The notes under the pieces were generated by a model. That model did not search any database and was not told the origin of the DNA. It was given only the letters and a program-made list of their open reading frames with translations. Source: Chelonoidis abingdonii (Eukaryota > Chordata > Testudines > Testudinidae). From it: DNA of 64,000 nt. The position numbers and the translations under genes are program-made. Each line of letters opens with the position of its first letter. Positions within the stretch are counted from its first letter, which is position 1. Shown one piece after another: positions 12,590-62,835 of this stretch. The DNA lies in the NCBI RefSeq assembly GCF_003597395.2, contig NC_133778.1, positions 12,342,888-12,406,887 of the forward strand, in the 5' to 3' direction.

Positions 12590-13376
12590 CACTAGCCCCA
12601 CTTTGCCTCAGTCTCAGCTACTGCCCAGTCCCCACCTAGTCCTCATTCACTGGGGCAGACTGCAGTATAAGCCACTCATCACAGGCAAAGGGGTTTGGAT
12701 CTGCTGCCTCTGGCTTCCCAAAGGCTGCCCATGCAACCCAGTACCTAATAAGCCTTACCAGGCCTGCAGCCTGGGGCTTTGCTAGGAAAGAGCTCCCAGG
12801 GCCGGCGCTACCATTTAGGCGACCTAGGCAATGGCCTAGGGCACCAGAATTTTTGGGGGGCGGCATGGGGCTCCGGGGGACCTACCGCAGTCATGCCGGC
12901 AGATGGTCCCCTGCTGTAAAAGCTCCGGTGGAGCTGCAGCAGTCATGCCGGCGGACGGTGCGCTGGTCTAAAGGCTCCAGCGGACCTACCGCAGTCATGC
13001 CTGCGGCAGGTCCACCGGAGCCTTTAGACGAGCGGACCACCCGCCGGCATGACTGCGGCAGCTCCACTGGAGCTGCGGGGGGACGGCGAAACGGCCGTCT
13101 GCCTAGGGCATCAGAAAACCTGGCACCGCTCCTGAGAGCTCCCCAGCTCCCTTGACTTTTCCCCAGCCCTGCTCCACTCCAGATACCTAGTTAAGCTCCC
13201 TACAACCAAGCCCTTCTCACTTGGAACACAGCCTTTTTATACAGGCCAGCTGCCGCCTGATTGGGGTGTGGCCCAGCTGCATCCACTTCCCCAATCAGCC
13301 CAGCTTTTAGAGCTGCAGCTCTCTCCAGGGCTGGTTTAAACCCTTCAGGGCAGGAGTGAGGAAGCACCCTGCTACA
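12590..13376 (+). mobile_element. LTR fragment related to the one at 38341, with nested hAT
   Basis: Excluding 12797-13134, this matches the second half of the LTR at 38341-39046 in order: CTTTGCCTCAGT, TCACTGGGGCAGACTGCAGT, CCACTCATCA, CTCTCCAGGGCTG, CCCTTCAGGGC and the terminus CACCCTGCTACA. The first part of the LTR is absent. It sits inside the antisense CR1. Confidence 0.7.
12797..13134 (+). mobile_element. Nonautonomous hAT element, 338 bp, nested in LTR
   Basis: Starts CAGGGCCGGCGCTACC and ends TGGCACCGCTCCTG. Perfect 8-bp target duplication AGAGCTCC at 12789-12796 and 13135-13142. The interior holds at least four variants of GCAGTCATGCCGGC, one of them inverted. This is the youngest layer of a hAT-in-LTR-in-CR1 stack. 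Confidence 0.92.
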
Positions 13377-13858
13377 CTTCCTATTCACTAGCCAGTAACC
13401 CTGTCAAAGGAGGAAATTAGGTTGGCTTGGCTTGATTTGTTTTTGACAAATTCCTGTTCCTTATAATCCTATTGTCCTCTAGGTGGTTACAAACTGTTTA
13501 ATAATTTGTTCAAGTATTTTTCGAGGTATCAAAGTTAGGCTATAATTTCCCACGTCCTCTTTGTTTCACTTTTTAAAGATAGGTACTATGTTTGCTCTTC
13601 TCCAGTTCTCTACAACCTCACCTGTCCTCTATGAGTTTTTGAAGACAATTGCTAACAGTTTTGAGATTGCTTCATCTAGTTCTTTAAGTACCCTAAGATG
13701 AATTTCATCAAGCCTTACTGACTTGAATACATTTAACTTATCTAAATATTCTTTAATGTGTTCTTTCCCTATTTTGGCTTGTGTTCCTTCCTCTTAATAT
13801 TAATTGTGTTGAATATCTAATCACCATTAATCTTCTTAGTCAAAACTGAAGCAAAATA

Positions 13859-14461
13859 TATATATCCAAGAGGCATATCATGTGAAAGGCAGATGATTGC
13901 TCCTCTGCATCAATCAGTTTATTCATTTTAAAAGGAAATAATGAGACGTTAATAAATGAAGGGGGGTGGGGGAGAATTGTGAAGCTTAGTTATTATTTAT
14001 CTACTGTATATGTCCAAATACCCTCACAAAGTGCTTACTTGTCTGGCTGCCTAACTGTTTTCACTGTATGAAATATTCTTATCTTGGCTGTCACCCCAAA
14101 TGAAGAATGACTATGTATTTTTGTAACTGGAAAAGCACCATTTAGATCAGCTATTTTAACCTTACTTTCATGTCATTAAAATCAGTTTTTACTTCCTGCA
14201 GGAAAAGAAAGAAAGGGAGACACATGCATCTTCTTTTAGAAAGGGTTGTTCATGTTACTATTTTAGGAAGGTGTTTATATGTTTTGTAAGTGTATTTATA
14301 TTTTGGAGGACAAAATTGCCTTTAAAAGAAAAGTATCTGTATACAAGCAAGTAGAAAGGATCAGTGTTGACTACAGTAACATTGTGACATCTTCTCCAGA
14401 AAAACTGCTTTTGCAGCAAAGAAACATCATTTAAGATAAGAGCTTCTAGCAGTTTAGAAAG
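13859..14461. other. Unique-looking flank, re-read in degraded form after the gap
   Basis: No repeat or gene recognised. The sequence itself recurs, with many small losses, at about 15255-15785 (see findings). Confidence 0.6.
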
Positions 14462-14596
14462 TAAGGCCTGGTCTACACTACGCGTTTAAATCGATTTAAA
14501 GAGCGTTAAATCGATTTAATGCTGTACCCGTCCACACTACAATGCCCTTTATGTCGATATAAAGGGCTCTTTAAATCGATTTCTGTACTCCACCCC

Positions 14597-14621
14597 NNNN
14601 NNNNNNNNNNNNNNNNNNNNN
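14597..14621. other. Assembly gap (25 N)
   Basis: A run of exactly 25 N, a round placeholder size, so the true gap length is unknown. Confidence 0.99.
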
Positions 14622-14639
14622 CGTCTGTCGGCTCGCCCC

Positions 14640-15794
14640 TGAGCAACCCCGTACTGGGCTCCCCGCTCTTGACTTTTCCACGCTGCTCCTCCCGACCCTC
14701 GTTGCTTCCCCGCTTCTACTTGGCACCGCTTTTTATAAGGCCGCTTCCGATGCTGGGTGTGGCCAGTGGATCCTTCCACCCCGACCAGTTTTAGATGCAA
14801 CGCTCTCAGGGTGGTTTTCCACCTCGGCAGAGTGAGCGCTGCTCACTTCTCTTCAGCCCGTCCCCTGTCCTAAGAAGGCAATTAGGTTGGCTTAGGTGAC
14901 TTTGATATTTGGCCATTCTGTTCCCTTCTTCACTATTGTTCTGGTGTTACACCTGTTATCTTTTCGTCATTTCGAAGGTCATAAAGTTCGGTTTTTCGTC
15001 TCTGTTTCTTTTTCAGATCGTCTAAATGTTTTGTTGCTTTTCTCCCTCTCTAATCCTGTTTATAAAGTTTTGCACGCCATGCTACCGTTTTGACAGCTTG
15101 TCTAATCTTTTTTCAAGTACGGAACCTAAAAGGATTTCAATAACTTACTGCTTGAAATCTTACATTACTAAATTTTTTTGTGTTCTTTCCTCTATTGGCT
15201 TGTGTTTTCTCTTAATTTATTGGTTGGATATTAAATACAATTAATCTTCTATCAAGACTGAGCAAATATATTATATAAGAAGGCAATAATCTGTGAAAGG
15301 CAGATGATTGTTGTGCATTCATCAGTTTTTCATTATAAAGGAAATGAACGTTAATATGAGGGGGAGGGGGAATGTAAGTTAGTTATTATTTATAATATAG
15401 ATATGTATCTCACAAGTTGCTTAACTTGTCTGGCTGTAACTGTTTCAAACTGATAATAGATATTCATTATTGTGTAACAAAATGAAGAATGATATGTATT
15501 TGTAACTGGAAGCAATTTTAGATGCTATTTTAAACATACTTAATGTCATTAAATGTTATACTTATGCAGGAAGAAAGAGGGGAGAACATGCATCTTTTTT
15601 ATAGAAGGGTTGTTCAGTTAGTTTTAGGAAGGTTTTTATTTTGTAAGTCGTTTTTTTTGGAGGACAAATTGCTTTAAAAGAAAGTATCTGTACAAACAGT
15701 GAAAGATCAGTGTTGATACAGATAATCTGTGAATTTCTACACGAAAAAATGCTTTGCAGCAAGATCATTGAAAGCTTGCAGTTTGAAAGTGGTG
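14640..15794 (+). repeat. Degraded second copy of 13100-14464
   Basis: Colinear with the sequence before the gap: LTR end, CR1 part, unique flank, then the Harbinger left end. Anchors: AATTAGGTTGGCTT at 13415 and 14880; AGGGTTGTTCA at 14242 and 15606. Between these anchors the spacing is 827 versus 726 bases, a net loss of about 12 percent, made of many one- to few-base deletions. This looks like uncorrected long-read sequence more than a biological duplication. Confidence 0.85.
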
Positions 15795-17910
15795 GTTAAT
15801 CGATAAGGACGTTTACAATCGTATGCTGTACCGATCCTACACATTAGACTTTATTGTCGATATACGCTATTAAGGATTTAGTAATAAAATGACTTGCTCT
15901 GTAACTGATGATAGTCCCTCCCGAAGGATGCGGTATTGAATATTGATAGTTCAAAAATCGGATTACAGTAGTGTGAGAAAATTGAACGTATTGGCTCCGG
16001 GCCGGTTCCCACAGTGACACTGAAACGCTTCTGGACGACAGAAATCTGAAACTGAGCAGCGCGGCAGGTAAAACAGGAAATAAGCGCGACATTTGAATTA
16101 CATTATCTCTGTGTTGCCAAGCGTGGAGCTTGATCAAAAGGGTGGCGATGCAGTCCTCAACAAAAAAGAGTCAAATGGACGGTTGGGATACTGGATTGAT
16201 GCTTTATGATGAGAAATCTGTGTTAGAGTCGGTTACAGGAACGAAATGCAAAAGCGGTTTGACAAAATTCCAAGCTACCGTGTGCGGACAACCGTAAGGA
16301 AGCCAGCGATCACTGGGCTTCATGGGGGAAGGGAGGGAATATGAGGACCAGTTCCAAGTCCCAGCAGTCTCTGAAAAGTTTTGCAATTGCTTGGCTGAGC
16401 CTCAATGATTAGCTTCAAAACCATGGTCTGGCGTGGTATAGGGAAATAAGTCTACAAGGAATTCAAACCACCCCAAACATGTTGAAGAAAGAGGGAAGAA
16501 ATCATTTCTTGTACTTCTTTCAGTAGTCACTAATGTGGTTGATGCTGCTGGTAGAACGCGATGCTACACGCAGTGAAGAGACTATCGTCTTTACCTCTCT
16601 CTGGTAGACGGTGCATAGGCTGGTACGTTCCCTGAACCTGCGAAATAATGCTCAAATATAATGAGGAGAATGATTCCCTGGTTTATTAGTAGATAGGACA
16701 GATGACTATAGCATCTTTCATCGATAGAACTGGGCTTCAGCCCCTCTTTCCTGTGGAAAGACAGATTCTGTACTGCTGGACTGTCAGCGGGGAAGGCTGA
16801 CTCCTGCATTTTTAGTTTCACTAAACAAGTCTTGTTTCTTATTCCTGTTGCAATTCTTTAAATTCAACAATGGGGGGGGACAACTGCAGGTAGCCAGGAG
16901 GTTGGGAGGAGGAGAAGCAACAGATGGGGTTGTATCAGGGATCCCTTGAATGACTGGAAAAAAGAAGTGTGCTCTGATAATGGTCTCTAGTACATTGCTT
17001 ATTAGGCAGAATGGACTCTATATTTGTAGAAACATAAGGGGGGGATTAGATCAGTCAAGTGAGTCATCCCTATTTGTGCTTTTGCGTTGCCGCCGGCGAT
17101 TTTAGCCGCGGGCATCCATGAATGAAGCGGACAGTAGAGAGAGGAGAGATAACTGTCAATCTCATTGCAGTTTCATCCCGTAGACGGTCGAGAACGAACC
17201 GGGTAAACATGTCTGCTATATTGAAAAGCAAATGATGCTGCTGTGTGAGTGGAAGTATCGGCAATCTCTCTCGAGATAGTGAACATATACGTGAGAAAAA
17301 AAAAGCTGGAACGGGCTCATGAGTTGGTGGTGCTATGGACGCTGCAGGGAATCCGAAATGGCGGAAGAGATTGTCACTGAGTGTTTCCCGGAGAAGGAGA
17401 CGACGTTTACCAGAACCCCCGTAGACATTAAAGATCAACCTGAATCAGGGCGGAGAGAGACTGCGGTGACTATCAGGAATAGCTACGGAGCGCTACCTAC
17501 AATGCAACGCTCAGAATGACAGTTAGAGTGGAAGGGTTGTAAATTGTTGAACGCCAACTGAATTTGTGATGGACGCACAACTCCGAATTACTGTGCCTAG
17601 TGTGGCCGCATGAAATCGAAATTATAATATCAGTTTTATAAAACCGATTTTAGCAAATTCGATTTTATCCCGTAGTATAGACGTGGCCTAAGTTAGGTAG
17701 TCACGGTCTGTGATCCACTCATAGGACTGTTTAGAGATTCCTAAATCTTTTCAAACCAGTTCAGCCCTTCTCTAGGATGAATTTAGTGAAATTATTATCT
17801 TTAGAGGTGTCAATTTGATGCAACATGTTAAAAACGTACCTTCTATTCATGGAATTAGAATTTATTTTCTATTCTTTTGAATAGTACTAGAATGCCACAT
17901 AAAAATGATA

Positions 17911-18455
17911 GAGACAAGGTAGATGAGGTAATATTTTTTATTGGACCAACTTTTATTGGTGGAAGAGAAATTTCAAGCTTCACCAAGCTGTTCTTCAGGT
18001 GTGGAAAAAGTATTCAGTGTCATGGCTAAATACAAGCTGGGACATATGTGTTAACCTCTTATGTTTAACAATGTCACAGGAGACCACTTAATTGCCCACT
18101 TCATTTTAACAACTCTACAGTCACAGGATAAAGGAGGGTTAGTAGGTTACAAACTGTTATAATGAACTATAAAACCAGCATCTCTGAGTCCATGATTTTT
18201 AGTGTCTAGCAGAGTGATGAATTTAAGTTCCCAAAGCTTGTCTTTTGAAGGTGTTGTGTAGGTTTCCTTGGAGGATGAGAACTGAGGTTATTCCTTCCCC
18301 CACTTTTCACAGTTTGTAACCTACTAACCCTCCTTTGTCCTACAACTGCAGAGGTGTTAATTGCCCACTTCATTTTAAGAGGTCCCTGAAACATGAATTA
18401 ACCCTTTATGCTTAACAATCTGTTCCACCTTGTATTTGGCTGTGACTAAGGTTAC
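17911..18455 (-). mobile_element. Penelope-like element end with internal hairpin
   Basis: Antisense, the left part (17911-18010) has the layout of a Penelope-like 3' terminus: CTGAAGA core, short stem, GAAA, then a run of about 60 bases containing TTGGTCCAATAAAA. Further in, about 18016-18160 is the inverted complement of about 18305-18452 (for example ACCTACTAACCCTCCTTT against its complement at 18135-18152). The family assignment rests on the hammerhead-like core and on similarity in layout to the ends at 19331 and 45652. Confidence 0.5.
17971..17998 (-). ncRNA. Hammerhead-ribozyme-like core
   Basis: On the minus strand CTGAAGA (17998-17992) is followed by a 5-bp stem AGCTT/AAGCT with a GGTG loop and then GAAA (17974-17971). 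CTGANGA, stem II and GAAA are the conserved elements of a hammerhead, known from Penelope-like elements. Stem III and the cleavage site cannot be assigned with confidence. This is a motif-level call, not evidence of activity. Confidence 0.5.
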
Positions 18456-18467
18456 AAAACTGTCTCA

Positions 18468-18757
18468 GGGTATGGCTATACTCACACTTCACAGCGCTGC
18501 AACTTTCGCACTCAGGGGTGTGAAAAAACACCCCCCTGAGTGCAGCAAGATACAGCACTGTAAAGCGTGAGTGTAATCAGCGCGGCTCCCAGCACTGCAC
18601 GCTACACCCGTAAAGGATGTGGTTTACATTCAGCGCTGGGAGAGCTCTCTCCCAGCGCTGCCACTCCGACCACACTCACACTTCAAAGCGCTGCTGCAGA
18701 AGCACTCCCGCAGCACTGCCGCGGCAGTGCTTTGAAATTCCAAGTGTAGCCATACCC
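18468..18757. mobile_element. Harbinger-type MITE, 290 bp
   Basis: Ends GGGTATGGCTATACTC and AAGTGTAGCCATACCC are inverted repeats, flanked by TCA (18465-18467) and TTA (18758-18760), near-matching 3-bp duplications. It carries three exact CAGCGCTG palindromes (18492, 18631, 18653), the same word that is repeated near both ends of the Harbinger element at 22112. Confidence 0.75.
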
Positions 18758-18760
18758 TTA

Positions 18761-19330
18761 GATTCAGGCCAGATTGCTAGATTAGGGCCACAGAGGTCAC
18801 AGATTCTGATTTTTCATGACCTCCAGGACATTTGGTCTTGAGCTGTCAGCCCCAGATGGCAGGGCTTGGGCTGTCAGTTCCGCCTCCCACACACCTGCCA
18901 GTGACAGGGATTGGGCTTCAGCCCCACACTGGGGTGCTTGGGCTTCTGTGAACTTTTGTTTATTGCCTGCAACCTGTCTGTGACTTTAACTAACCAAAAT
19001 GACCAAGATAAAACCTTAACCCTAGCTGTGATACTCTGATTACATAATATCTTAAAACAATGTATATCAAAATTATAATACACAAGTCAAAATGGGACAA
19101 TAAAGTCAAAAATAGTTTTTACCCTATCAAAACAAAATGTTTCAACATTAACAAAATGAAATTAAAAGGCTGAAACTATTCATTCTGACACTTTCCTGCA
19201 AAATGCTTAGATTTTGACAAAACTGCAGTTTCCAACAGAAAAGTGTTCTCTCTAAAATATTTCAACCAGTTCCGATTACAAGCATTCAGCATTACTACCA
19301 GTTATTATGAAGCACACAGTTACTTATAAA
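18761..19330. other. No recognised feature
   Basis: Unique-looking AT-rich sequence; no family recognised. Confidence 0.5.
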
Positions 19331-24581: not shown

Positions 24582-25662
24582 TTAACTGTTGGCTTTCAGC
24601 CTCAAATTGCTCCTTTTAAGCATCCCTAATCCTTGAAGCACTGTGCTGGCCTTCTCTAGTACGCCCTGCTCTCTGGCTGTGCAAATTCGCCTCCAGGCGT
24701 TCGAACCTCGGAGGTCCATTCGCTCACTGAAAGGTTTCACCCTTCCCTTCACACAAATATTATGGAGGATAAAGCACGCGGTTATGAATCGCTGGGGATG
24801 CTGCTTTCCCCCACGTCTTGCTTCCCGTAGAGGACTTCTCCATCTCCCCTTTAAACGGCCAAAGCACACTCCACAGTCATTCTGCACCGGCTCAGCCTGT
24901 AGTTTGAACCGGTCCCTATGCCTCCTGTCAGCTTCCCTGTATAGGCGGTTTTGGCATGGAGCCAAGGCATAACGGTAATCGTCGTAAGCAGGGTCTGCCA
25001 AGATCACAAATGGGCATTTCCGACGTTCCCCACTGTGATCTTCCGGTCTGGGTAAAAAAGTCTCCTGCCTGCAGCTTCCTGAACATGCCACTGTTCCGAA
25101 AGATGCGTGGCATCATGCACCTTTCCAAGCCACCTGTGTATAATGTCAGTGAAACGCGCACGGTGATCCCAAGCCGCCTGGAGAACCATAGAGAAATACC
25201 CTTCCGATTAATGTACTCAGGTGCCAGGTGGGGTGGCTGCGCCAGAATAGAAATATGCGTCCATCTTATTGCCCCCTCTCCACAGTTAGGGAAAACCATT
25301 TGTGCAAAGCATTCCACCGCTGTCCTGCCATTCCCAGAGTCAGCGGTTCCTTCTTAGCAGGATGGCGATTAATGGCCCTGCTCAAACTATTGCCATCACA
25401 CACTGATCCAACGGTTGACTTTCCTGTTTGACATTTCCACCCAAATGGTTTGCGACCGATCGTAGCTGTCTGGAGTTGCAGCTTCCAGACTGCAATAGCC
25501 ACCGCGTCTCCACTGACAGGGGAAGCTCTCAGTCTCGTGTCCTTGCGCTGCAGGGTTGGGCGAGCTCAGCACAGTCCACTGAAAGTGGCTTTCTTCATCC
25601 TTAAAGTTCTGCAGCCATTGCATCCTCTCTCCCAGACTTGCATGACGATGTGATCCCACCAC
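24582..25662 (-). pseudogene. HARBI1-like transposase (DDE nuclease) relic
   Basis: Minus-strand frames in order. 25662-25396 has a fragment before the helix-turn-helix (EAATPDSYDRSQTIW, where the family has KLATPDSYRSV). 25317-24928 has VFPNCGEGAIRWTHISILA, PEYINRKGI and RIFRNSGMFRKLQAG. 25091-24582 has FVILADPAYDDYRYALAP, GVCFGRLKGRWRSPLR and FITACFILHNICVKGR. These are the landmark motifs of HARBI1-type DDE nucleases. The first Asp (normally A-I-D-G-T-H) reads Arg and the catalytic Glu before FGRLK reads Gly, so the active site is lost as well as the frame. It would have cut and joined the transposon ends. Confidence 0.8.
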
Positions 25663-26203
25663 TCAGTGCTTGTTTCCCGAGCCAAAGGTGGCGGTTCCAC
25701 GGTGCTAAGCTGTCTGTTACTGCACAACAATTTAGTGTCAGGGCGCGTCAGCCGAATCTATTTCATCATGCTGAGCTCTCCTCACTGTCACTTTGGAGCA
25801 TAAGGAATAGCTCAACTGCCAGACGTGATGTCCTGGCAAACATTCACAGCAAAGTCCTCAGCAGCTCGGCTCCATTTCCTACTGAAATCAACGCAGACTC
25901 CACATGGCACCAAATGGCTCAAAAGGGAAGCGATGCAGCACGGGTCGTTGGAACAGGAAGCGGAATGACCCCACCCTTCCGTCCCTTCCCACAACCCACT
26001 GCGCCAAAATGGGACGAGGTGCTCTGTGGGATAGCTGCCCACAATGCACCACTCACAACAGCGCTGCAAATGCTGCAAGTGTGGACACACTGCAGCGCTG
26101 GTCGCTGTCAGTGTGGACACACTGCAGCGCTAGCCCTACACAGCTGTACGACCACAGCTGTAACTACCAGCGCTGCAAAAATGTAAGTGTAGCCGTGGCC
26201 TAA

Positions 26204-45673: not shown

Positions 45674-47520
45674 AAATAAATATGTTAGTCTTTAAGGTGC
45701 CACCGGACTCCTTGTGGTTTTTGTGGATACAGACTAACACGGCTACCCCCTGAAACTTTATAAGTGTACTCTCTATCCCATTATCTAAATAACTGATGAA
45801 GATACTAAACAGAACTAGACCCAAAACTGACCTCTGCAGCACCTGACTTGATATGCCCTTCCAGCTTGATTGTGAACCACTGATAACTACTCTCTGGGAA
45901 CAGTTTTCCAATCAGCAATGCACGCACCTTATAGTAACCCCATCTAGACTGTATTTCCCTATTTTGTTTATGAGAAGGTGATGCAAGACAGTATCAAAAG
46001 CCTTACTAAAATCAAGATATACCACATCTACCACTTTCCCCCTATCCACAAGACTTGTTACCCTGTGAAAGAACATTATTAGATTGATTTGACATAATTT
46101 GTTCTTAAAAAATCCAAGCTGACTGCTACTTAGCACCTTATTTTCTTATAGGTGTTTGCAAACTGATTGCTTAATTATCTGCTCCATTATCTTTCTGGGT
46201 ACTGAAGTTAAACTGACTTGTCTGTAATTCCCTGGATTGTCCTTATTTTCCTTTTTATTGACTGGCACTACATTTGCCCTTTTCCAGAACTCTGGAATCT
46301 CTTCAGTTTTCCATGACTTTTGGAAGATAATTGCTAATGGTTTAGATATCTGCTCTGTCAGCTCCTTGAGTATTCTAGGATGCATTTCATCAGGCCCTGG
46401 TGACTTCAAGACATCTAACTTGTCTTATCAATTTTTAACTTGTTCTTTCCCTGTTTTAGCCTCTTATCCTCCCTCATTTTCACTGGCATTTGCTATGTTA
46501 GACGTAAAGTTGCTGCTAACTTTTTTGACGAAAATTGAAACAAAAAAGTAATTTAGCACTTCTGCCATTTCCACATTTTCTTTTATTGCATTTCCCCCGT
46601 CACTGAGTAACAGGCCTATACTATCATTGGTCTTCTTTCTTCTAATGTATTTGCAGAATGTTTTCTTGCTACCCTTTATGTCTCTAGCTAGTTTAATCTC
46701 ATTTTGTGCCTTGGCCTTTCTAATTTTTCCCTAAATACTTGTTTATATAAATCTTTTGTAATTTGACTTAGTTTCTGACTTTTTTTAGGACTCATTTGAG
46801 TTTCAGATCATTGAAGATCTCTTGGTTAAGCCAGGGTAGTCTCCTGTCGTACTCGCTGTCTTTCCTATTCAGTCTGATTATTAAGAGCACAAGCCACTAG
46901 GTCTCTGAAAAATTGCCAACTCTCATGAACTGTTTTTCCGCTTACACTTGCTTCCCATGGGATCTTACCTACCAATTACCTGAGTTTGCTAAAGTCTGCC
47001 TTCTTGAAATCCATTATCTTTATTGTGCTCTTTTCCTTCCTACGATTCCTTAGCATCATGAAATCTACCATTTCATGGTCACTTTTACCCAAGCTGCCGT
47101 TCACCTTCAAATTCTTAATCAGTTGCTCCTATTTCTCAAAATCAAATCTAGAACCTCTTCTCTAGTAGCTTTGTCCACCTTCTGAAATAAAAATTTGTCA
47201 CAAATACATCCCAAGAACTTGCTGGATAATCTGTGCCTTGCTGTGTTATCTTTCCTAAAAGATGTTTGGGTAGTTGAGGTCTCCCATCACCACCAAGTCC
47301 TGGGCTTTGGATGATTTTGTTAGATGTTTAAAAAAAAACAACCCTTCATCCACCTTTTCTTCCTGGGTCGGTGATCTGTAGTAGACCCCTACCATGAAAT
47401 CACTCTTTTTTTTAACCCCTTTATCCTTACCCAGAGACTTTCAACAAGTCTGTCTCCTACTTCCAGCTCAACTTCAGTCTAAGTGTCTACATGTTTGATA
47501 TAAGGAAATACCTTCTCTCT

Positions 47521-54086: not shown

Positions 54087-54471
54087 TTAGGCCTGGTCTA
54101 CACTATGATTTTAGGTCGAATTTAGCAGCGTTACCTCAATTTAAGCCTGGACCCGGCCACACGATGAAGCTCTTTTTTTTTTGACTGAAAGGGTTCTTTA
54201 AATCATTTTCTTTATTCCACCTCTGACAAGGGGATTAGTACTGAAATCAGCCTTGCTGGGTCGAATTTGGAATAGTGCGGACGCAATTTGACGGTATTGG
54301 CCTCCGGGAGCTATCCTAGAGTGCTCCACTGTGATCGCTCTGAACAGCGCTCTCAACTCAGATGCACTGACAGGTAGATAGGAAAAGGCCCACAAACTTT
54401 TGAATCTCATTTCCTGTTTGGCCAGTGTGGCAAGGTGCAGGTGAGTGCAGATCTCATCAGCAGAGGTGACC

Positions 54472-55018
54472 ATGATGGAGTCCCAGGATCACAAAAGAGC
54501 TCCAGCATGGACCGAACAGGAGGTATGGGCTCTCCTCGCCCTATGGGGAGCTGAATCCATGCTAGCTGAACTCTGTTCCAGTAAATGAAATTTACAAAAC
54601 ATTAGAAAAAGTCTCCAAGGGCATGAAGGACAGAGGTCATAACAGGGACGCAAAGCAGTGCTGCGTGAAAATTAAGGAGCTATGGCAAGGCTACCAAAAA
54701 AACAGAGAGGCAACCAGCCACCCCGGATCAGAGCCTCAAACATGCTGATTCTATGATGAGCTGCATGCCATGCTAGGGGGTGCAGCCACCACTACCCCAA
54801 TCCTGTGCTTTGACTCCATGAATGGAGAATCACGCAACACAGAAGCGGGTTTTGGGGACAAGGAAGATGATGATGAAGAGACTGAAGATAGCTAACAGCA
54901 AGGAAGCAGAGAAACCAGTTTCCCCAACAGCAAAGATATGTTTCTCATCCTGGACCTGGAGCCAGTAACCCCTGAACCCACCCCAAGCATGCTCCCGGAT
55001 CCTGAAGGTGGAGTGTAC
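54472..55018 (+). pseudogene. Harbinger Myb/SANT-like DNA-binding protein relic
   Basis: From ATG at 54472 the sequence reads MMESQDHKRAPAWTEQEVWAL, the Trp-bearing first helix of the SANT/Myb-like domain, then LLALWGAESMLAELCSSK and a stop at 54586-54588. One frame over it continues with EIYKTLEKVSKGMKDRGHNRD, AKQCCVKIKELWQGYQKN, a stop within EPQTC-stop-FYDELHAMLGG, an acidic stretch (GFGDKEDDDEETEDS) and MFLILDLEPVTPEP. Domain order (DNA-binding trihelix, acidic linker, C-terminal LDLEP motif) matches Harbinger proteins that bring the nuclease to DNA. At least one frameshift and two or three stops make it inactive. Confidence 0.8.
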
Positions 55019-56493
55019 CTGGTGAGTGTACCTTTGTAAATATTACACATGGTTTAAAAGCAAGAGTGTTTAATGATTAATTTGCCCTGGCATTCCCGGA
55101 CAGTACAGCTATTGGAAAAGTCTGTTAACATGTATAGGAATGGAACGGAAATCCTCCAGGGACATCTCCGTAAAGTTCTCCTGGATGTACTCCCAAAACC
55201 TTTGCAAAAGGTTTCTGGGGAGGGTGGCCTTATTCCGTCTGCCATGGTAGGACACTTTACCATACCAGGCCAGTAGCACGTAGTCTGGAATCATTGCATA
55301 ACAAAGCATGGCAGCGTATGGTCCCAGTGTTTGCTGGCATTCAAACAACGTCTGTTCTTTATCTCACTGTGCTATCCTCAGGAGAGTGATATCATTCATG
55401 GTCACCTGGTTGAAATAGGGTGCTTTTATTAAGTGGACATTCAGAGGTTCCCATTCCTACTCGCTTGTTTGGCTGTGGCTGAACAGAAATGTTCCCTCTG
55501 TTAGCCATGTGGTGGGGGGAGCGGGGAAGCATGAGTGATCTCTTGCACCAAACTGGCAGACCCTCAACACAAGAGGCAAAATGAGACCTTGTAACGAAAG
55601 CACATGTGCTGTGTAATGTGAACAGCAAGGTTTAACGTGAAAGAGTATACCCATTGCTCCCTAAAATGTGCCTTTTTAACTACCACTTTCCCTTTTCCTC
55701 CACCAGCTACAAATATTTCTACTTCGCAGAGGCTAGCAAAGATTAGAAGGTGAAAAAAACGCACTCAGGATGAAATGTTCTCTGAGCTCCTGCTGTCCTC
55801 CCACACTGACAGAGCACAGCAAAATGCGTGGAGACAGAAAATGTCAGAATGCAGGAAAGCACAATATGAACATGAGGAGAGATGGCAGGCTGGAGAGTGT
55901 ACGTGGTAGGCTAAAGAGAGTAAGTGGTGGGTTGAAGCTGATAGGTGGCATCAGCTTGCTGACAGAAGGCAAGAGTCGATGCTCAGGCTGCTGGAAGATC
56001 AAACTCATCCTCCAGCGTATGGTTGAGCTGCAGGAAAGGCACTACAGCCCTATGTAACCAACAGCCCTCCTCCCCAAGTTGCATTGCCTTCTCACCTAGA
56101 TGCCCAGGAATGCAGTGGGAAGGGGCCTCCGGCCACCCAGCCACTCCACCCCAGAGGATTGCCCAAGCAACAGAAGGCTGGCCTTCAATAAATTTTAAAA
56201 TGCAGTGTGTCCTTGTCCTTCCCTCCTCCCCCACCCCACCCAGTGCTTCTATCCTCCCCCACCCCTCCTGGGCTACCTTGGCAGTTATCCCGCTATTTGT
56301 GTGATGAATTAATAAAGAATGCATGAATGTGAAGCAACAATGACTTTATTGCCTCTGCAAGTGGTGATCGAAGTGGGGAGGGGAGGTTGTCTAGGTTACA
56401 GGGAAGTAGAGTGAACCAAGGGCGGGTGGGGTTCATCAAGGAAAAACAAACAGAACTTTCACACCGTAGCCTGGCCAGTCATGAAACTGATTT

Positions 56494-57798
56494 TCAAAGC
56501 TTCTCTGATGCGCATCGCGCTCTCCTGTACTCTTCTAACCGCCCTGGTGTCTGGCTGCGCGTAATCAGTGGCCAGGCGATTTTCCTCACCTCCCACCTCA
56601 CCATAAATGTCTCCCCCTTACTCTCACAGATATTGTGGAGCGCACAGCAAGCAGTAATAACAATGGGAATATTGGTTTTGCTGAGGTCTATCCAAGTCAG
56701 TAAACTGCGCCAGCGTGCTTTTAAATGTCCAAATGCACATTCTACCACCGTTCTGCACTTGCTCAGCCTATAGATGAACAACTCCTGACTACTGTCCAGG
56801 CTGCCTGTGTATGGCTTCATGAGCCATGGCATTAAGGGGTAGGCTGGGTCCCCAAGGATAACTATAGGCATTTCAACATCCCCAATAGTTAATTTCTGGT
56901 CTGGGAAGAAAGTCCCTTCCTGCAGCTTTTGAAACAGACCAGAGTTCCTGAAGATGCAAGTGTCATGTACCTTTCCCGGCCATCCCACGCTGATGTTGGT
57001 GAAACGTCCCTTGTGATCCACCAGTGCTTGCAGCAGCATTGAAAAGTAACCCTTGCTGTTTATATACTCGCTGGTTTGGTTCTCCGGTGCCAAGATAGGG
57101 ATATGGTTCCGTCTATCGCCTCACCACAGTTAGGGAATCCCTTTGCAGCAAAGCTATTCACTGTGACCTGCACATTTCCCAGAGTCAATACCCTTGATAT
57201 CAGCAGCTCTTTGATTGTGTTGGTTACTTGGATCACAGCAGCCCCCACTAGTAGATTTGTCCACTCCAAATTGATGCCTGACTGACCGGTAGCTATCTGG
57301 TGTTGCAAGCTTCCACAGGGCTATCGCCACTCGCTTTTCAACTGTGAGGGCTGCTCTCATCTTGGTATTCTGGCGCTTCAGGGTAGGGGAAAGGAAATCA
57401 CAAAGTTCCATGAAAGTGCCCTTATGCATGCGAAAGTTTCGCAGCCACCGGGAATCGTCCCACACCTGCAACACTATGCGGTCCCACCAGTCTGTGCTTG
57501 TTTCCCAGGCCCACAATCGGCATTCCACAGCATGAACCTGCCCCATTAACACCATGATGTGCACACTGCTGGGGCCCATACTTTGTGAGAAGTCTATATC
57601 CATGTCTATGTCCTCATCACTCTCGTCACCGCATTGCCGTTGCCTCCTCACCCGGTTTTGCTTTGGCAGGTTCTGGTTCTGCATATACTCCAGGATAATG
57701 TGCATGGTGTTTACAGTGCTCATAATTGTTGTGGTGATCTGAGCAGGCTCCATGATCCCAGTGCTATGGCATCTGGGCTGAAAAAAGGTATGAAACAA
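56494..57798 (-). pseudogene. HARBI1-like transposase (DDE nuclease) relic
   Basis: Three minus-strand frames join in order. 57798-57154 has DWWDRIVLQVWDDSRWLRNF, then VAIALWKLATPDSYRSVRHQ and FGVDKSTS (helix-turn-helix). 57308-57060 has FAAKGFPNCGEAIDGT, with the first catalytic Asp. 57093-56494 has SEYINSKGYFSMLLQALVDH, VGWPGKVHDTCIFRNSGLFQ (second Asp), IVILGDPAYPLMPWLMKPYT, VVECAFGHLKARWRSLL (catalytic Glu) and ITACCALHNICE. All three acidic residues are still encoded, but two frameshifts (near 57160-57300 and 57060-57095) break the protein. Length and motif order fit a complete HARBI1-type nuclease, which excises and integrates the element at TWA sites. Confidence 0.88.
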
Positions 57799-58728
57799 TT
57801 GTCTGCTCTGACGGAGGGAAGGGCGACTGACGACATGGCTTACGGGGAATTAAAATCCACAAAAGGGGTGGCTTTGCATCAAGGAGAAACACAAACAGCT
57901 ATCACACAGAATAGCTCCTTCAAGGATTGAACTGAAAACCCTGGGTTTACTAGGCTGTTGATTTCATGGAGGGAGGGAGGAAGCTAATGAATACAACACA
58001 AATCGGGTCTATTTCTTGTTTTGATCCACTCCATCTATCACTTACATCTTCAGGCGGCAGCAGAGGTGCAGTTCTACTGCTAGCCATCGTCATCTCCTGG
58101 TTGCTCAGCAGAAGATGGGAATGACCTGGCTGAGTCACTCCCATGTCTGCCCAGGTGCCCCTGACTGACCTCACTGAGGTCGGCTAAAAGAGCACCCAGG
58201 AGTATGACGATGATGACTACCAGTCGTAACACACCATCTGCTGCCAAAAGGCAATGAGCTGCTGCTGCGTAGCAATGCAGTCCCATGTCTGCCAGCACCT
58301 AGGAGACTTAGGGTGACAGTCAGCTGTGCAGGCTCCATGTTTGCTGTGGTATGGCGTCTGCACAGGTAACCCAGGAAAAAAGGCGTGAAACGATTGTCTG
58401 CTGTTGCTTTCACAAAGAGAGGGGGGACCTGACGACATGTACCCTGAATCACCCACAACATTGTTTTTGCCCCATCAAGCACTGGGATCTCAACTCAGAA
58501 TTCCAATGGGCAGCGGAGACTGCAGGAACTGTGGGATAGCTATCCACAGCTACCCACAGTGCAACGCTCCAGAAGTCGACGCTAGCCTCGGTACTGTGGA
58601 CGCAGTCCGCCGACTTAATGCACTTAGAGCATTTTTTGTGAGGACACACACAATCGACTCTATAAACGATTTCTGAAAAAACGACTTCTAGAAATTCAAC
58701 CTAATTTCATAGTGTAGACCTACCCTTA

Positions 58729-59249
58729 GTGTGCTCCATCATCTCCTCCCCTAACAATCCTGTGGCCCCAGACTAATCACCTGATGTCTCAGGCAAATTG
58801 GTAACAGAAATCTGTCACATTGCAAGTTCTTGCATTCTCTGTTATTCTTTATTCTTGTCTGCTACCTCTAACCTTAGCTAGCACATTTATGCAGAGAAGA
58901 CTGAGCTGTACATGTCTTTCAATATTTTTAAGGCACACAGATACCACAGTCATATGCACAATTTAAGAAATGACATGGATAGTCAGATTTAATGACTCCT
59001 CTTTATTGTTCCTCTTGGTCTGTCTTAAGTTAGAAAGCTTTATGTTTCTTCTCCCTCAACTAAATATCTCAAATATAGCAGCTCTTGTGCAATCCTCAAA
59101 CACGGCTCACCTCTTCTTCTTGACCCAGGTCTCCTTTTTGCTTCCCCTATCTCTTAACCTTGACATAGTCAGGAAGTTACCTTCTGTACCCACACCTACA
59201 AATTTGCTGAAATGAGCGTCATGATTTCATTTCTTCTGACTTTGATTAT
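58729..59249. other. No recognised feature
   Basis: Unique-looking sequence. Confidence 0.45.
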
Positions 59250-61522: not shown

Positions 61523-62835
61523 TCATAGAATCATAGAAGATTAGGGTTGGAAGAGACCTCAGGGAGGTCATCTAGTCCAACCACTTGCTCATAGCAGGAC
61601 CAACCCCAACTAAATCATCCCAGCCAGAGCTTTTTCCAGCCAGGCCTTAAAAACCTCTAAGGATGGAGATTCCACCACCTCCCTAGGTAACCCATTCCAG
61701 TGCTTCATCACCATCCTAGTGAAATAGTTTTTCCTAATATCCAATCTAAACCTCCCCCACCGCAACTTGAGACCATTGCTCCTCGTTCTATCATCTGCCA
61801 TCACTGAGAACAGCCTAGCTTCATCCTCTTTGGAACCCCCCTTCAGGTAGTTGAAGGCTGCTATCAAATCCCCCCTCACTCTTCTCTTCTGTAGACTAAA
61901 TAAGCCCAGTTCCCTCAGCCTCTCCTCATAAGTCACGTACCCCAGCCCTCTAATAATTTCCATTGCTCTCTACTGGACTCTCTCCAATTTGTCCACATCC
62001 TTTTGTAGTGAGAGGCCCGAAACTAGACACAATACTCCAGATGTGGCTTCACCAGGCCGAACAGAGGGGAATAATCACTCCCCTTGATCTTCTGGCAATG
62101 CTCCCACTAATGCAGCCCAATATGCTGTTAGCCTTCCTGGCAACAAGGGCACACTGTTGACTCATATCCAGCTCCTTGTCCACTGTAATCCCCAGGTCCT
62201 TTTCTGCAGAACTGCTGCTTAGCCAGTTGGTCCCCAGCTTGTAGCAGTGCATAGGATTCTTCTGTCCTAAGTGCAAGACTCTGCACTTGTCCATGTTGAA
62301 CCTCATCAGATTTTTTTTAGCCCAATCCTCCAATTTGTCTAGGTCACTCTGGAACCTATCCCTACCTTCTGGTGTATCTACCTCTCCCCCCAGCTTAGTG
62401 TCATCAGCGAACTTGTTGAGGGTGCAATCCATCCCACCATCCAGATCATTAATGAAGATGTTGAACAAAACCAGCCCCAGGACAAACCCCTTGGGCACTC
62501 CACTTGATACTGGCTGCCAACTAGACATCAAGCCATTGATCACTACCCATTGAGACTATCTAGCCAGCTTTCTATCCACCTTATAGTCCATTCATCCAAT
62601 CCATACTTTTTTAAACTTGATGGCAAGAATACCGTGGGAGACCATATCAAAACCTTTGCTAAAGTCAAGATATATCATGTCCACCACTTTCCCCATATCC
62701 ACAGAGACAGTTATCTCATCATAGGAGGCAATCAGGTTGGTCAGGCATGATTTTCCCTTGGGGAATCCATGTTGACTGTTCTTGATCACCTTCCTCTCCT
62801 CCAAGTGCTTCAAAATGTTGGGGCACAAATGCTGG
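61523..62835 (-). mobile_element. CR1 LINE, antisense, 5'-truncated
   Basis: Starts with the 3' repeat (ATCATAGAATCATAGAAG) and the best-preserved CR1 3' region in the window (GGTTGGAAGAGACCTCAGGG). It continues through the RT C-terminal half to about 62835. Confidence 0.9.
61610..62835 (-). pseudogene. CR1 reverse transcriptase C-terminal half
   Basis: Sense order on the minus strand: frame 63059-62592 includes KSCLTNLIASYDEI and DMIYLDFSKGFDMVSHGIL (motif A, with FDMVSH). Frame 62543-62049 has SSGVPKGFVLGLVLFNIFIND (motif B), LNKFADDTKLGGEV with intact F-A-D-D, then LMRFNMDKCRVLHLGQKNP and DMSQQCALVARKANSILGCI. Frame 61963-61610 has [20 protein letters not shown], then [20 protein letters not shown]. 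Only two shifts interrupt these pieces. This is the youngest-looking CR1 here, but it is 5'-truncated and lacks the endonuclease. Confidence 0.9.

Follow-up and report, generated by a model that had tools for sequence, protein, structure and literature searches.

The question raised by this locus is whether a stretch of tortoise DNA is present twice in the genome or was read twice during its assembly. The window analysed comprises 64,000 nucleotides of Chelonoidis abingdonii (NCBI RefSeq assembly GCF_003597395.2, contig NC_133778.1, positions 12,342,888 to 12,406,887 of the forward strand), and positions are counted from its first letter. A run of 25 Ns at 14597-14621, the sole N run of the window, separates two readings of similar sequence, the second of which had been described in a first-pass annotation as a degraded repeat of the first.

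The repeated stretch

The in-order repetition of pre-gap sequence after the Ns was borne out by alignment. The clean left copy at 13096-14462 (plus strand), consisting of an LTR-like end, a CR1 segment and a flank, reappeared directly after the Ns at 14622-15790 with order and orientation kept (E 4e-132). The alignment score was 2922, while none of 50 dinucleotide shuffles made from the left copy scored above 564. The repeat had been placed from about 14640, but it begins at 14622, the first base after the Ns, which aligns with 13096. The left copy measures 1367 b and the right copy 1169 b, a net loss of 14.5%; the 1411 alignment columns hold 1034 matches and 91 substitutions, with 242 b deleted and 44 b inserted.

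The CR1 part of the left copy also matched 46041-46475 and 39744-39221, while the flank portion was without a further match in the window besides the noisy copy. The LTR and CR1 labels are those of the first-pass annotation; reverse-transcriptase profile matches were obtained only in other ORFs of the window. A reverse-transcriptase fragment lies on the minus strand at 62049-62555 (RVT_1, E 2.1e-10). Just left of the duplicated stretch is a GC-rich palindromic array (12870-13074), with a tandem unit of 52 b, in which 154 b match their own reverse complement at 87%.

The element at the contig break

PIF/Harbinger elements are defined by 3-bp TWA target-site copies and terminal inverted repeats. 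Past 15790 the right copy enters the left end of the transposon in which the left contig stops (14465-14596 against 15790-15900: score 184, maximum 114 among 200 mononucleotide shuffles). In the left contig a TAA, a putative target-site copy read directly at 14462-14464 (plus strand), is followed by GGCCTGG and by the left end of a Harbinger-like element (14465-14596, plus strand). After the gap the element occupies 15790-17688 (plus strand) and closes with GGCC, followed at 17689-17691 (plus strand) by a second TAA, the putative target-site copy of the right edge, near which ordinary sequence probably restarts. Correcting these 1.9 kb for a net loss of 14.5% gives an estimated element length of about 2.2 kb. 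The right terminal inverted repeat at 17671-17688 (minus strand) shares, as reverse complement, 15 of 18 bases with 14465-14482. TAA copies were thus found on both sides together with inverted ends.

A second element, at 54089-58725, is matched by the first at both ends; it has TTA flanks and contains a DDE_Tnp_4 ORF (minus strand, 56494-57120; PF13359, E 5.1e-33). The matched parts lie at about 54111-54621 and 58350-58756, with scores of 523 and 440 against maxima of 299 and 227 among 60 mononucleotide shuffles; in the element middle several of 16 overlapping 240-b windows failed to outscore the highest of 15 shuffles. The left end at 14465-14596 was 74% identical to 54089-54221 with only 2 gap columns in 133, so it seems clean up to the Ns. 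From the shared TAA edges, the inverted ends and the matches to the relative, it follows that both readings belong to one Harbinger-like insertion. Its likeness to PIF/Harbinger elements lies in these same features, including ends held in common with a relative that carries a DDE_Tnp_4 ORF, and the element is a bystander at which the contig broke and not the cause of the artefact.

A further ORF in the second element (57154-57849) gave no Pfam match. Sequence at 24582-25700 is a distant relative of the transposase at 56494-57120 (64% over 1104 columns to 56497-57528), its Plant_tran match falling below the cut-off (E 0.0075); it is contained in a CpG-rich stretch at 22.8-25.5 kb with CpG observed/expected ratios (o/e) of up to 0.72.

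Error spectrum of the right copy

Seven paralogue pairs from the same window, some of them overlapping each other, served as controls. The gap pair had 2.03 indel events per substitution, against 0.10-0.38 in the controls, and a transition/transversion ratio (ts/tv) of 0.40, against 0.63-1.62. Under three other scorings the indel ratio of the gap pair was 3.12, 1.47 and 0.70 (controls 0.45-0.81, 0.08-0.30 and 0.04-0.18) and its ts/tv 0.37, 0.39 and 0.41 (controls 0.50-1.53, 0.62-1.63 and 0.65-1.69). The gap pair therefore ranked above the controls for indels under all four scorings, under three of them by a wide margin. The ts/tv alone would not decide, since the lowest control (0.63; pair 24618/56497, the DDE_Tnp_4 ORF and its distant relative) comes near the gap pair.

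Errors were also specific to base and strand. On the plus strand 180 of 664 A or C bases were deleted, against 62 of 703 G or T (p 3.3e-19), and the asymmetry was present in each of four segments and under three scorings. Among isolated bases the deletions were A 46/174, C 34/151, G 14/154 and T 18/179. Transversions made up 65 of the 91 substitutions (26 transitions), with 38 A<>C exchanges against 7 G<>T. In the seven control pairs the smallest p for strand asymmetry was 0.0075, in the opposite direction. Deletion rate was flat over homopolymer runs of 1, 2, 3, 4 and 5 or more bases (0.17, 0.19, 0.18, 0.18 and 0.14). One-base deletions formed 56% and two-base deletions 34% of those observed, against 71% and 21% predicted by a model of independent per-base deletion. 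Error per left-copy base was 0.31-0.38 in the first four 150-b bins counted from the Ns and fell to 0.21-0.27 in the five that follow.

The errors of 14622-15790 are read-like and not evolutionary. Asymmetry of this kind would not be expected from mutation of double-stranded DNA over 1.4 kb; it fits the reading of one strand with weak signal for two bases, and the noisy sequence would then stem from one molecule or from reads of one orientation. A dye explanation for the joint failure of A and C, by which two bases would have shared one laser in early PacBio instruments, was considered, but a literature search found nothing on it.

The left copy as template

A three-way test was made with the left copy, the right copy and an outside CR1 copy from elsewhere in the window, two such outsiders being used. 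At the sites where the left copy differs from the outsider, the right copy had the outsider base at only 2/116 and 3/143. The left base was kept at 81 and 103 of these sites and lost at 24 and 26, and the remaining 9 and 11 showed a third base. In two control trios of real paralogues the outsider base was present at 50/245 and 34/137. Changes in the right copy were equally frequent where left copy and outsider agree (27/247 undeleted sites) and where they differ (11/92). Because the outsider base is nearly absent from the right copy, the left copy has had essentially no history of its own, and it is the right copy that changed; mutations spread over both copies, as in old paralogues, were not found. 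The left copy served as the template of the right copy.

An indel spectrum resembling that of old genomic paralogues had been named in the first-pass annotation as one of the observations that would speak against read noise. The spectrum found differs from all seven control pairs and is strand-asymmetric, with its changes on the right copy. The earlier interpretation as unpolished long-read sequence is accordingly upheld for 14622-15790 by the spectrum, the strand asymmetry and the three-way test. Rather than a separate unpolished contig, the stretch is better seen as an extension that gap filling with long reads gave to the right contig and that overlaps the left one.

Origin of the duplication

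The duplication looks like an assembly artefact rather than a real one, and its best explanation, which we hold to be very probably correct, is that gap filling of the PBJelly type, with long reads and from one side only, left an overlap unrecognised. A contig of short-read type would have stopped at 14596, about 130 b inside the Harbinger-like element, and the next contig would start near the right end of the element, at about 17.69 kb. From an anchor in the right contig, long-read sequence would have been added leftwards through the roughly 2 kb of the element and for about 1.4 kb more, over DNA that the left contig already contained. The overlap would have been missed because the added sequence was about 27% different from the truth, and a minimal gap of 25 Ns kept, with false duplication as the result. 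The higher error found beside the Ns would be expected if read support became thinner with distance from the anchor in the right contig.

Overfilled gaps are reportedly left by PBJelly with exactly 25 Ns; a literature search for this habit found no statement of it, only 25 as a default minimum gap. The evaluation of overfilled gaps in the bald notothen is reportedly of the type of Rayamajhi et al. PBJelly is described as treating 25 or more Ns as a gap, extending the flanks with reads, and calling a gap overfilled where extensions exceed its predicted size without overlap (English et al. 2012, PMC3504050). At the present locus a gap of 25 Ns lies beside sequence with read-like errors, two features of overfilled gaps. 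Cases have been reported in a cichlid (a 20-b gap overfilled with 779 b; PMC4580222), in a bird-of-paradise assembly (236 overfilled gaps; PMC7757076) and in the notothenioid assembly of the bald notothen, where 28,377 gaps were overfilled and duplication arose in 37 complete BUSCO genes; the same report considers a snapping-turtle assembly possibly affected likewise (PMC9635638). A turtle assembly is described as made with ALLPATHS-LG and PBJelly (PMC7718744), with no link to this window established. The likeness to a PBJelly overfilled gap would extend to a long-read extension past the predicted gap, an unrecognised overlap, a kept gap and a false duplication; the present case differs in that the extension is one-sided and that error rate and deletion bias are above the figures given for PacBio reads. 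The authors of DENTIST report, from simulated reads, mean identities of PBJelly fill of 88.6-95.2% in three of their species and 89.2% in human (PMC8848313), and the 73% of identical columns found here is below these values.

The reading with most to be said for it beside gap filling, though still improbable, is that a long-read assembler or an assembly merge left a contig end of low quality, or that the noisy stretch is nanopore sequence. The VGP describes false homotype duplications where contigs meet across a gap (PMC8081667), and here too one genomic sequence stands on both sides of an inter-contig gap; the VGP description concerns overlap-layout-consensus contigs, whereas the second copy here is uncorrected. 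The excess of deletions over insertions suits nanopore reads better than typical PacBio figures (PMC7671305), but ONT errors are given there as mainly transitions and as frequent in homopolymers, against 65 transversions among 91 substitutions and a deletion rate independent of run length in the right copy. Noise on one side of the 25-N gap with clean sequence on the other fits one-sided extension. There is little probability that a real recent duplication or a second haplotype is present, the extra copy being known only from raw long reads and its noise being technical. Sequence alone does not separate one locus read twice from two near-identical loci, and the private bases of the left copy are kept in the right copy, as either origin gives. 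No base, however, separates the copy from the Ns, and the copy runs on through the element that the left contig breaks off in; an unrecognised overlap covers both, so no extra event is needed.

An old tandem duplication, in which an ancient duplication of flank and element end was followed by mutational divergence, would account for the arrangement of the parts as a direct repeat. It was rejected on the error spectrum and the three-way test, and we consider it very unlikely: the spectrum is unlike that of the seven paralogue pairs, the strand asymmetry is absent from them, the changes are on the right copy alone, and CpG o/e rises from 0.12 to 0.66, the opposite of CpG decay. A biological, strand-asymmetric local hypermutation that cost one strand roughly one in four of its A and C bases but spared G and T has a probability close to nil, and would, if true, be unlike any described. 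A missed hairpin adapter giving a palindromic read was also rejected; the repeat is direct, and that artefact is described as opposite-strand (PMC3504050).

As for the platform of the gap-filling reads, the A<>C exchanges and the homopolymer-independent deletions point to PacBio. PacBio data are reported to have more A<->C and G<->T transversions, and ONT data more transitions together with a proneness to error in homopolymers (PMC7671305). Raw PacBio reads are given a total error of about 13-15% and are insertion-rich (PMC3504050, PMC7671305), and nanopore fail reads a total error of 21-23% (PMC4722697). Against PacBio fill stand the roughly 27% of columns that differ and the excess of deleted over inserted bases (242 against 44). 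We lean towards PacBio without counting this as a result.

The artefact is of an ordinary, known kind and nothing new as biology. Copy-number estimates would be too high because of the apparent duplication, and any gene model, indel or CpG value taken from this stretch would mislead. A base- and strand-specific error spectrum with paralogue controls from the same window offers a cheap, read-free test for raw read fill.

Extent of the noise

Noise is demonstrated in 14622-15790. That the element from 15790 to about 17690 shares it, as the first-pass annotation had supposed, is supported in part: CpG o/e and the deletion rates at the ends speak for it, the missing A/C deletion excess against it. 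At 15790-16300 the CpG o/e was 1.19, where the matching end of the relative at 54089-58725 has 0.43; at 17180-17690 it was 1.14, compared with 0.56 at the other end of the relative. Deletion rates against this relative were 14-16%. The CpG richness of the element may be native, since the part of it that closes the left contig (14464-14596) has an o/e of 1.42. The A/C excess was not seen in the element interior relative to 54089-58725 (36/251 against 36/258; 35/219 against 29/199). These A/C minus G/T differences of 0.004 and 0.014 compare with 0.057 +/- 0.032 and 0.060 +/- 0.035 for simulated noise at the most divergent setting, less divergent settings giving larger differences. Comparison with a relative 60% identical may be too blurred to show the signature, or gap fill near its anchor may be of better consensus.

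A reference-free noise scanner was weak, 49% of held-out noised windows exceeding the 95% line of clean ones; 12 of 20 overlapping windows starting at 14550-17400 exceeded that line, and the known-noisy windows at 15150-15749 fell below it. CpG o/e was 0.37-1.09 in nine windows inside the region and had a mean of 0.24 and a maximum of 0.72 in 200 outside, and is supportive rather than diagnostic because 38 of the 200 were at or above the inside minimum. Within the element, 16300-17180 had a near-background CpG o/e of 0.43, and 4 of 6 overlapping 300-b windows were below the scanner's 95% line. CpG o/e, the deletion rates and the weak scanner make the element probably noisy at least at both ends. 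We recommend that 14622 to about 15790 be masked, and probably also parts of the next 1.9 kb.

CpG counts per 200 b fell from 8-12 over 17001-17700 to 0-2 over 17701-18500, which fits a right noise boundary near the right end of the element, and reached 10 again near 18.5 kb. This second, local rise occupies 18401-18900, to the right of the element and beside inverted matches at 18019-18575.
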